NCBI RefSeq assembly: GCF_029714325.1
Contig: NZ_CP121666.1
Location: 4,836,001-4,900,000, forward strand
Length of the DNA stretch: 64,000 bases
Reading direction: 5' to 3'
Source of the DNA: Bradyrhizobium sp. CB1717
GTDB lineage: Bacteria > Pseudomonadota > Alphaproteobacteria > Rhizobiales > Xanthobacteraceae
Shown: positions 34,812 to 36,852 of the stretch, in pieces
Layout: each line of letters starts with the position of its first letter
Position numbering within the stretch: the stretch's first letter is position 1
Program-made: the position numbers and the translations under genes
Notes under the pieces: generated by a model
Seen by the model: only the letters and a program-made list of their open reading frames with translations
Told to the model about the DNA's origin: nothing
Database searches by the model: none

Positions 34812-35849
34812 TTACGCCATCACCCGCTGCGGCAAGAGCTCCGCGATCTGCACCGCATTCAGCGCTGCGCCCTTGAGCAACTGATCGGCCGCCACGAACA
34901 TCGAGATCGAATGCCCCGAGGGATCGCTCAGGTCCTTGCGGATGCGGCCGACCAGGACGTCGTCCTGGCCCGAGGCGTCGATCGGCATCGGGAAGTAGTT
35001 CTTGATGCGGTCGTCGACGACCTTCACGCCGGGGGCCTGCGCCATGATGGCGCGGACCTGGTCCTCGGTGATGGGCTTCTCGCATTCGAAGGTGATGGCC
35101 TCGCAATGGGCGCGCAGCACCGGCACGCGCACGCAGGTCACGCCGACCGCGATGCTCTCGTCCTCGAAGATCTTGCGGGTTTCCTTGATGACCTTGGTCT
35201 CTTCGTCGTTGTAGCCGGTCTCAGGATCGACCGCTGTGTTGTGGTTGAAGAGATTGAAGGCGTAGGGATGCGGCATCACCTTGGGCGTATAGACCTGCCC
35301 GTTGAGGTTGGCGCGGGTGGATTCGACGAGCTCGTCCATTGCAGCTGCGCCGGCGCCGCTGGCGGCCTGGTAGGTCGAGATGATCACGCGCTTGATGCGG
35401 TTCTTCTGGTGGATCGGCCAGAGCGGCACCAGCGCGGTGATCGCGGCGCAGTTCGGGTTGGCGATGATGCCCTTGTGGTCGCGGATGCGGTTCGCGTTGA
35501 TCTCGGGGATCACCAGCGGCACGTTGGGATCCATGCGGAAGGCGGAGGAATTGTCGACCACGACGGCGCCCGACTTGACCGCGATCGGTGCAAACTTCTT
35601 CGAGATGCTGCCGCCGGCGGAGAACAGGGCGATGTCGACGCCCTCGAAGGCGCGCTCGGTCAACTCCTCGATGACGACGTTCTGGCCGCGGAACGACACC
35701 GTCTTGCCGGCCGACCGGGCGCTCGCCAGCGCCTTGAGCTTGCCGACGCGAAAGCCGCGCTTGTCCATGGTGGCGATGAATTCGGCGCCCACCGCACCGG
35801 TGACGCCGACAATCGCGACGACGGGATCGTTACTCACTTTGTCCTCCAT
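34812..35849 (-). CDS. asd: aspartate-semialdehyde dehydrogenase
   Basis: This 345-residue enzyme reduces aspartyl phosphate to aspartate semialdehyde, the common precursor of Lys, Met and Thr and of diaminopimelate. The NADP loop is 'VVAIVGVTGAVGAEFIATMD'. The catalytic Cys134 lies in 'GIIANPNCAAITALVPLW', and 'VDNSSAFRMDPNVPLVIPEIN' and 'VRVPVLRAHCEAITFE' are conserved. The start MEDKVSNDP follows 'ggagg'. An internal GTG (VSNDPVV) is possible. It is preceded by its own promoter, a Thr-rich leader ORF and a terminator (35865-36035), which indicates attenuation control. Confidence 0.96.
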   Translation of the reverse strand: MEDKVSNDPVVAIVGVTGAVGAEFIATMDKRGFRVGKLKALASARSAGKTVSFRGQNVVIEELTERAFEGVDIALFSAGGSISKKFAPIAVKSGAVVVDNSSAFRMDPNVPLVIPEINANRIRDHKGIIANPNCAAITALVPLWPIHQKNRIKRVIISTYQAASGAGAAAMDELVESTRANLNGQVYTPKVMPHPYAFNLFNHNTAVDPETGYNDEETKVIKETRKIFEDESIAVGVTCVRVPVLRAHCEAITFECEKPITEDQVRAIMAQAPGVKVVDDRIKNYFPMPIDASGQDDVLVGRIRKDLSDPSGHSISMFVAADQLLKGAALNAVQIAELLPQRVMA

Positions 35850-35864
35850 TGGGTTTTAGACAAC

Positions 35865-35896
35865 AAAAAAGCCCCGGACCATCGAGGGCGGGGCTT
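35865..35896 (-). terminator. attenuator terminator in the asd leader
   Basis: On the minus strand, the stem AAGCCCCG / CGGGGCTT is followed by a run of six T, 16 bases before the asd start codon. It lies after the Thr-rich leader ORF (35927-35998) and before the asd ribosome site, the position expected for a transcription attenuator. It is too far from the PepSY stop (36075) to be simply that gene's terminator, given the promoter in between. Confidence 0.75.
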
Positions 35897-35926
35897 CGGT
35901 AGAGCTGATGCGTTTAAGTCGACGAC

Positions 35927-35998
35927 CTACGCGCGCACGCCTCCCCGGGCCCCTGGGGCCGTGGTGGTTTTGGTCGTGCGTTTGGTGGTCGTGAACAT
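35927..35998 (-). CDS. threonine-rich leader peptide of asd
   Basis: A 23-codon ORF reads MFTTTKRTTKTTTAPGARGG plus VRA, then TAG. Threonine makes up eight of the 11 residues at positions 3-13, in three clusters (ACG ACC ACC, ACG ACC, ACC ACC ACG). No Shine-Dalgarno precedes it. A promoter (TTGACG-N17-CATAAG at 36007-36035) predicts transcription to start at or within a few bases of the ATG, so the ORF may be leaderless, as reported for trpL of Sinorhizobium. The bases across its stop (GGUCGUC in RNA) are complementary to the ACGACC Thr codons, so a stalled ribosome would free them. Function as a Thr attenuator is inference from this architecture. Confidence 0.75.
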   Translation of the reverse strand: MFTTTKRTTKTTTAPGARGGVRA

Positions 35999-36006
35999 GG
36001 CGGCGA

Positions 36007-36035
36007 CTTATGCGGGAGAGTTTTGCGCCCGTCAA
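36007..36035 (-). promoter_or_regulatory. putative sigma-70 promoter of the asd leader
   Basis: On the minus strand, TTGACG (36035-36030), a 17-bp spacer and CATAAG (36012-36007). The expected start point is about eight or nine bases downstream of the -10 box, which coincides with the A of the leader ATG at 35998. Confidence 0.6.
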
Positions 36036-36074: not shown

Positions 36075-36677
36075 CTATTTGGCGCGCGCGCCCGGCGGTT
36101 CCAGGATGACCTCCTTGAGGTCGTCGCCGCTGATCACGACGATCGCGAAACTGAGCCGGCCGCGCTCGCGCACGAGGCCGCCGCTGATGGCCTTGCCCGA
36201 GGCTGCGCGCTCGGCGACGCGCACAGCATCGGACAGGCGGTGCCTGATCGCACCGAGCGCTGCGAGGTTGCTGCGATCGTCGTGGTCGAGCTCGGCGAGG
36301 GGCAGGGCGGCTTCGCCGCCGACGAGCTCGCCGGTGGCGGCGTTGATGGTGTGGCGCCAGATCCGGTCGTTGTGCAGGGTCTTCACCCGGTAGACCGGCA
36401 CGCCCGAGCCGCCGTCGAAACTCACATCGGCGGTGGTGGCGCCGGCATGGCGGGCTTCCGCAATCGCCATGGCCTGGCTGATCGTGATCGAGGAGCTGCG
36501 GAATCGTTCGATCTCGCGGCTCACCGCCTGGCGATCTGCGTCGGCATCACCATCTGTGTCGCTGTGAAGCGCGGTCGGCGTGCCCGCGCTCACGATGGCC
36601 TGTGCCGGCGCAGCGATGAGCAGCGCGGGCAAGGCGACCGCAAGCAGTTGCGAGGTCCATCGTTTGGCTGTCGTCAT
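36075..36677 (-). CDS. exported PepSY-domain protein
   Basis: Starting at MTTAKRWTSQLLAVALPALLIAAPAQA (ATG ending at 36677), a 200-residue protein with a signal peptide. Two PepSY-like units are seen: 'ITISQAMAIAEARHAGATTADVSFDGG..VPVYRVKTLHND..WRHTINAATGELVGGE' near residues 60-130 and 'LSDAVRVAERAASGKAISGGLV..RGRLSFAIVVIS' near 145-190. PepSY domains often inhibit proteases or act as envelope sensors. It has its own promoter with a TetR-like operator (36853-36881). Confidence 0.8.
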   Translation of the reverse strand: MTTAKRWTSQLLAVALPALLIAAPAQAIVSAGTPTALHSDTDGDADADRQAVSREIERFRSSSITISQAMAIAEARHAGATTADVSFDGGSGVPVYRVKTLHNDRIWRHTINAATGELVGGEAALPLAELDHDDRSNLAALGAIRHRLSDAVRVAERAASGKAISGGLVRERGRLSFAIVVISGDDLKEVILEPPGARAK

Positions 36678-36852
36678 GCTCGAAACCCTCGGCCAGCGAG
36701 TGTGCCGGATGATCGTAAACAATTCGCGGCCGACCTTGGGCAAAGGCCGGCCGCGGAGCGCCGCGGCGGGCTGTACCCGCCGCGGCGATCGAAGCGGTAC
36801 TGACCTCTTTTGGGGCTGGTGAAAAAAGCGGCCCGTACCGACTTATAACTAA

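Follow-up and report, generated by a model that had tools for sequence, protein, structure and literature searches.

A threonine- and lysine-codon leader as a candidate transcription attenuator of the second asd gene of Bradyrhizobium

The locus studied here raises a simple question: what is an open reading frame of 23 codons, crowded with threonine, doing between a promoter and a gene for aspartate-semialdehyde dehydrogenase? It lies in a window of 64,000 nucleotides from Bradyrhizobium sp. CB1717, the whole stretch of DNA that was analysed, and all positions below are those of the window. A sequence-only reading had described, on the minus strand, a TTGACG-N17-CATAAG promoter, this ORF with eight Thr codons, an intrinsic terminator and asd, and a base-by-base check confirmed each of them (Table 1). 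The same reading took the arrangement for an attenuator, which our analysis supports, since the parts stand in order and both the layout and the Thr codons are kept in relatives. We consider it highly likely that the leader is a ribosome-mediated transcription attenuator of the gene, here called asd2, with a predicted transcription start on the leader AUG or a few bases from it.

Table 1. Features of the asd2 locus in window coordinates
Feature	Position	Strand	Basis or remark
-35 element TTGACG	36030..36035	minus	base-by-base check and comparison rows
-10 element CATAAG	36007..36012	minus	17-base spacer; 8 bases to leader ATG
Leader ORF MFTTTKRTTKTTTAPGARGGVRA*	35927..35998	minus	ATG at 35998; 23 codons and stop
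Predicted decision codons Lys10-Thr11-Thr12 (AAA ACC ACC)	35963..35971	minus	folding model and K10/T11 conservation
Protector hairpin GGCCC-CAG-GGGCC	35948..35960	minus	predicted to mask the 5' strand of the antiterminator unless a ribosome covers it
Antiterminator 5' strand GGGGCCCGGGGAG	35941..35953	minus	folding and species-matching
GGUCGU over stop codon	35922..35927	minus	pairs with ACGACC of Thr3-Thr4 (35992-35987) in untranslated RNA
Antiterminator 3' strand CUCUACCGAAGCCCC	35890..35904	minus	overlaps terminator 5' arm
Predicted intrinsic terminator with TTTTTT	35865..35896	minus	hairpin AAGCCCCG...CGGGGCTT
asd2, aspartate-semialdehyde dehydrogenase	34812..35849	minus	TIGR01296 above cut-off

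The leader and the gene behind it

The Asd2 protein scores 407.3 bits against TIGR01296 (asd_B), for which the curated cut-off is 324.2. It is one of two in the genome; the other, Asd1 (gene at G000:C1:393272-394258), is 47% identical to it, and both pass the curated cut-offs of the asd models. The gene asd1 is the usual alphaproteobacterial asd and carries no Thr leader in this genome (its best eight-codon stretch has two Thr). At E 1e-105, asd2 was found in 138 of 146 Bradyrhizobium genomes and in 28 of 385 genomes sampled from the class, two of these 28 being Bradyrhizobium. A tree of 44 chosen proteins places asd2 in a single clade (support 100/97), with the asd1-type rows L233 and L236 nearest, and puts the leader-bearing asd2 on one side of a poorly supported branch (69/0). 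L233 belongs to another family; ahead of its asd, which branches near asd2, stand a Thr leader, IATTTMTTKKATRFGG, and a GC hairpin, an arrangement similar to that of asd2.

The ATG of the asd2 frame at 35849 stands 15 bases past the last T of the terminator. Judged from the sequence, the true start is more likely the GTG at 35837 (341 residues), 5 bases downstream of a GGAGG. We prefer it because the upstream ATG is missing from 8 of the 80 loci compared, which were the best 80 among 489 relatives; in these eight the match begins at residue 2 and, by eye, ACG or AAG takes the place of the window's ATG.

Several side observations concern the gene. Four of the 138 asd2-bearing Bradyrhizobium genomes hold a second asd2 copy (L326, L327, L328, L329), in which leader and terminator are kept while a different sequence replaces the TTGACG region. 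A palindromic repeat of the type CATGATCCGGAAAAGTGG...GATCATG lies between terminator and asd2 in L018, L025, L046, L048, L061 and L064, with the leader intact. One record titled Frankia sp. RB7 (L057, JAUEPE010000002.1) appears to be misnamed, since its asd2 locus is of the Bradyrhizobium type; the protein is 96% identical.

The eight Thr codons of the leader are confined to codons 3 to 13, and two Lys codons accompany them. A density of at least five Thr per eight codons would be expected 0.1 times in 103 dinucleotide-shuffled asd upstream regions from other families. The interleaved Thr/Lys codon pattern ACNACNAARNNNACNACNAARACNACN, drawn up after the leader had been seen, matches the 9.23 Mb genome once, at this leader, and its reversed control gave no match in the same 9.23 Mb. 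No Thr leader was seen upstream of the genome's best match to each of hom, thrC and the thrB locus. Rfam, with its thr leader and asd motif families included, returned no match in the 64 kb window; when 451 bases were searched permissively, the one hit was asX2, on the opposite strand and below its gathering score (E 0.054).

Within the genus the layout hardly varies. The 17-base spacer, CATAAG, a gap of 7-8 bases and the leader ORF are kept in 86 of 86 Bradyrhizobium-type rows, which comprise the best 80 of 489 relatives and six more, the window included; all are close relatives, and two loci are counted twice (L087 is L027, L115 is L049). TTGACG is exact in 85 of the 86, L066 having TTGACC, and every leader carries 5-9 Thr codons. 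Among the 41 distinct 24-codon ORFs drawn from 84 of these rows, K6, K10 and T11 are invariant. Twenty further copies, picked for divergence or duplication, all have the leader ORF (19 by script, L331 by eye). Here the exceptions begin to appear: the diverged single copies L329 and L344 have Arg6 and Thr10 in place of K6 and K10, and L331 has Thr left at positions 2, 3 and 11 only, although the Thr-poor leaders L330 and L331 both retain a Lys-Thr pair ahead of the hairpin. A synonymous-change test inside the genus gave no clear third-position signal, with 14, 13 and 13 of 24 sites variable at the three codon positions. The sequence-only reading had proposed alignment across relatives as a check for conserved Thr codons, and our comparison shows them conserved within the genus and, some exceptions aside, in other families of Alphaproteobacteria.

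Could the terminator instead belong to the gene upstream, with the Thr ORF a chance product of its 3' region? That gene (36075-36743) encodes a PepSY domain (PF03413) on the same strand and ends close by, the leader starting 77 bases past it. A promoter of consensus layout nonetheless lies in between and is kept in all 86 rows, the ORF recurs across families, and the duplicates L326-L329 have changed their promoter region and kept leader and terminator. We regard this explanation as very improbable.

The leader AUG is 7-8 bases past the -10 hexamer in the Bradyrhizobium rows, and the distance is similar or slightly longer outside the genus (by eye). If the predicted start holds, an AUG so near the -10 element has no space for a ribosome-binding site before it, and from this geometry we infer that the leader would be translated leaderless or nearly so. 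There is precedent for such starts: 320 mapped gene starts in B. japonicum lie 0-10 bases ahead of start codons (PMC4842269), a paper in whose main text a word search did not find asd, and the Sinorhizobium trpL RNA is described as starting with its AUG in the accessible text of PMC7298713 and PMC10117765.

A predicted switch at codons 10 to 12

We propose a model in which the transcript would begin with the leader AUG, or no more than a few bases away, and translation would start from its 5' end, as with Sinorhizobium trpL. With charged Thr-tRNA, and possibly Lys-tRNA, at hand, the ribosome would reach the stop codon, the antiterminator strand would be covered or folded back, and the terminator would form. 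A ribosome stalled near Lys10-Thr11-Thr12 would cover the 5' half of the protector hairpin; the freed GGGGCCCGGGGAG could then pair with CUCUACCGAAGCCCC, the terminator would be lost and asd2 would be transcribed. A leader that is not translated would form the terminator.

For the window, folding calculations predict such a switch; several of the results that follow, on other leaders and on shuffled sequences, count against it. Without translation, the window's RNA keeps an intact terminator. In an equilibrium model of ribosome stalling, the probability of the terminator is 0.99 for the free RNA and at least 0.97 with a ribosome at codons 2-9, falls to 0.17, 0.00 and 0.52 at codons 10, 11 and 12, and is 0.99 from codon 13 on; with assumed ribosome footprints of 6-16 bases the switch zone stays within codons 8-13. 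When the best of three footprints is taken, the terminator probability drops below 0.5 at some stall codon in 71 of 76 distinct Bradyrhizobium leaders, that codon being Thr11 in 53 of them, and the other five do not switch in the model. L014, L117 and L288 show no switch in the stall model, and the free RNAs of L055 and L223 already form the antiterminator, with a terminator probability of 0.63 for L223. Shuffling the middle segment brought 13 of 60 window sequences and 5 of 60 L042 sequences below 0.5; for either leader, 2 of 60 shuffles fell as far as the real sequence does.

Comparison of species argues for the antiterminator in another manner. Its two strands fit better within a species than between species (p 2e-5 with 23 leaders, p 0.0016 with 11, both sets hand-chosen for divergence), a signal that is not significant when restricted to antiterminator bases outside the terminator stem core (p 0.36). 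The terminator helix is paired in 97.5% of cells (30 sequences). Because the antiterminator core is shared with this nearly invariant terminator, covariation on a fixed alignment is uninformative for it, and its core pair counts are no higher than those of shuffles (72.7% vs 73.4%). The protector hairpin pairs in 66% of cells and, with the register shifted by one column, in 73.8%, so that its register is ambiguous across species.

Two pairings had been suggested from the sequence alone. The GGGG/CCCC contact is the better supported and turns out to be part of the longer antiterminator just described. The other, ACGACC with GGUCGU, is present in the window, but its species-matching is weak (p 0.026, 23 leaders), and on that ground we rejected a long-range helix between the leader start and the bases after the stop as the main switch.

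It may be asked whether the terminated RNA and its peptide act mainly in trans, as do rnTrpL and peTrpL, with attenuation of asd2 secondary. The unit has its own promoter and terminator, its peptide sequence is well conserved in the genus, and the trpL precedent in Sinorhizobium (as presented in the accessible text of PMC7298713) lends the idea some weight. Outside the genus, however, the tail mostly changes while the Thr/Lys cluster stays, with ARA and CAR endings recurring, and the motif occurs once in the genome, before asd2; the loci elsewhere were found via asd and are thus blind to other positions. We judge a principal role in trans to be improbable, and the leader to act very probably as a classic attenuator does, with a predicted response to Thr.

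Leaders beyond the genus and before asd1

Outside Bradyrhizobium, 27 asd2 loci were inspected, with Asd2 58-83% identical and one incomplete locus set aside (L293, whose match starts at residue 55). By eye, 19 of the 27 have a Thr/Lys leader of 22-30 codons followed by a GC hairpin; the low-Thr members among them are L226 and L229, with three and two Thr codons, and at the other eight loci no Thr leader was found. The tails are largely changed and the Thr/Lys cluster persists, with endings of ARA or CAR recurring. A U run of at least five follows the hairpin in 5 of the 16 leaders checked (L088, L223, L224, L228, L291), and termination in the remainder is doubtful for that reason.

Two further features were noted by eye at these loci. 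A second possible hairpin of the type GTCTCTCC...GGAGAGAC lies over the asd2 ribosome-binding site in L118, L226, L228, L229, L230, L282, L292 and L295, all distant relatives, and most of these show no clear U run after the leader hairpin. CAUA or CAUC recurs some 10-20 bases past the leader stop outside Bradyrhizobium, is absent in some leaders, and could pair with the 5' AUG, hiding it from further ribosomes.

Thr-rich leaders are also found before the usual asd. In other families of the order, at least four Thr per eight codons occur upstream of asd1 at 48 of 103 loci and in 21 of 36 families, compared with 1.55 after dinucleotide shuffling and none on the opposite strand. The 103 upstream regions were taken from genomes of the order, 188 of 199 of which gave a match, and the 48 include L220, likely false since its ORF overruns the match start, and L204, a second copy. 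L107 has a leader by eye and a score below the cut-off. Of 26 asd1 loci in the family to which the window belongs, two pass the score, both probably by chance, and outside the order 2 of 20 do (L233, L240).

These asd1 leaders are built differently. In 45 of 54 the last Thr codon lies within 0-2 codons of the stop, a count which, like the per-genus codon counts, retains the probable chance matches L097 and L099. In 23 of 37 genera the segment that pairs most strongly with the asd ribosome-binding region begins 0-20 bases past the leader stop, and the mean pairing energy with that region peaks in the same interval; L097 and L099 were dropped from this analysis. Thr near the stop and a complementary strand downstream fit translational attenuation, in which a ribosome stalled on the Thr codons would cover a strand by which the asd start is otherwise masked. 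Species-matching is weak here (p 0.02), possibly since these strands differ little from one species to another. Thr/Lys ORFs with the Thr cluster at or near the stop were seen at L120, L123, L132, L135, L159, L207, L221 and other asd1 loci, and in many cases the sequence after the ORF can pair with the ribosome-binding region of asd. In much of the order the usual asd is probably under translational attenuation.

By the Thr score used above, no asd1 leader was found in the 16 asd2-bearing genomes examined (15 and that of the window), three of which (L225, L227 and L231, among the 15) have none on asd2 either. A hand-over of end-product control from asd1 to asd2 is suggested at most, and is unproved because most asd1 genes of the window's family have no leader, with asd2 present or not.

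The earlier description of the leader as Thr-rich stands, but it passed over the Lys codons and over the fact that the gene is a second paralog. Asd is the branch-point enzyme for Lys and Thr. Within the 12 codons richest in Thr of each leader, Lys accounts for 55 of 141 residues other than Thr across 23 asd2 leaders. For asd1, sampled at one leader from each of 24 families, the figure is 41 of 135; one of these families is probably a false case, another lies outside the order, and L099 is kept. It may therefore be that the leader senses both end products, a simple reading because Asd supplies both. Alternatively, Lys codons could serve as A-rich spacers that just keep the RNA unstructured, with Thr alone being sensed. 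We give this a real chance of being correct, though a somewhat lesser one than not: AAA is favoured over AAG in the leaders (33:22 for asd2, 56:18 for asd1), unlike the asd2 gene itself, where AAG prevails 19:1. Yet the other A-rich codons, Asn, Gln and Glu, are scarce, together 10 of the 141 residues for asd2 and none of the 135 for asd1, and in 173 control Thr-rich 12-mers from long frames Lys is only 3.1% of non-Thr residues. If both amino acids are read, we would infer that asd2 responds to Lys as well as to Thr.

In a broader context, it is tempting to speculate that asd stands across the Alphaproteobacteria under Thr/Lys-interleaved leaders reading both end products, in two builds, one with a leaderless ORF governing a terminator (asd2) and one hiding the ribosome-binding site (asd1). 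We hold this class-wide view tentatively, as falling just short of an even prospect.

Relation to known systems

That no asd attenuator is known to have been described in Rhizobiales, as the first reading had it, needs amending, although the asd2 leader itself was not found described. SEP5 of Sinorhizobium meliloti is reported as a small ORF that is translated, contains six Thr and three Lys codons and lies within the 5' UTR of a gene named aspartate dehydrogenase; it was suggested to be a possible leader peptide and described as conserved in Sinorhizobium only (accessible text of PMC10117765). The gene so named is most likely asd, going by that text. As described there, SEP5 has its Thr and Lys codons near the 3' end, like the asd1 leaders; the asd2 leader differs in that its cluster is close to the 5' end, with a tail and the terminator after it. 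Beyond SEP5, our literature search, which covered journals outside subscription, found no description of asd attenuation in Alphaproteobacteria, and in the same non-subscription literature neither the asd2 leader nor the asd1 pattern seen across the order was found described. The asd RNA motif of Lactobacillales (RF01732; PMC2864571, as far as its accessible text goes) shares the asd name, but it is a structured RNA from another phylum, and the asd2 leader has no Rfam match. PMC7247131 was considered as a precedent and set aside, its accessible text treating ribosomal-protein leaders and containing neither 'asd' nor 'threonine'.

The locus thus offers a concrete, conserved switch candidate with named decision codons. 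If the model is true, it suggests why Bradyrhizobium retains two asd genes, one constitutive and one on demand.

The classic ribosome-mediated attenuator of this kind is thrL of enterobacteria, which precedes thrABC and combines Thr with Ile codons. The asd2 leader resembles it in being a short ORF rich in end-product codons with a terminator and a putative competing antiterminator. It differs in preceding asd2, in combining Thr with Lys, in having its start codon at the predicted 5' end and in matching no Rfam family. In that start it is closer to the trpL/rnTrpL of Sinorhizobium, likewise alphaproteobacterial, whose RNA begins at the leader AUG according to the accessible text of PMC7298713 and PMC10117765; trpL concerns another amino acid and another gene, and the 5' end of the asd2 leader is a predicted one. 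The asd2 leader may accordingly be placed alongside trpL as a candidate leaderless attenuator, possibly one that reads both end products of a single branch-point enzyme.
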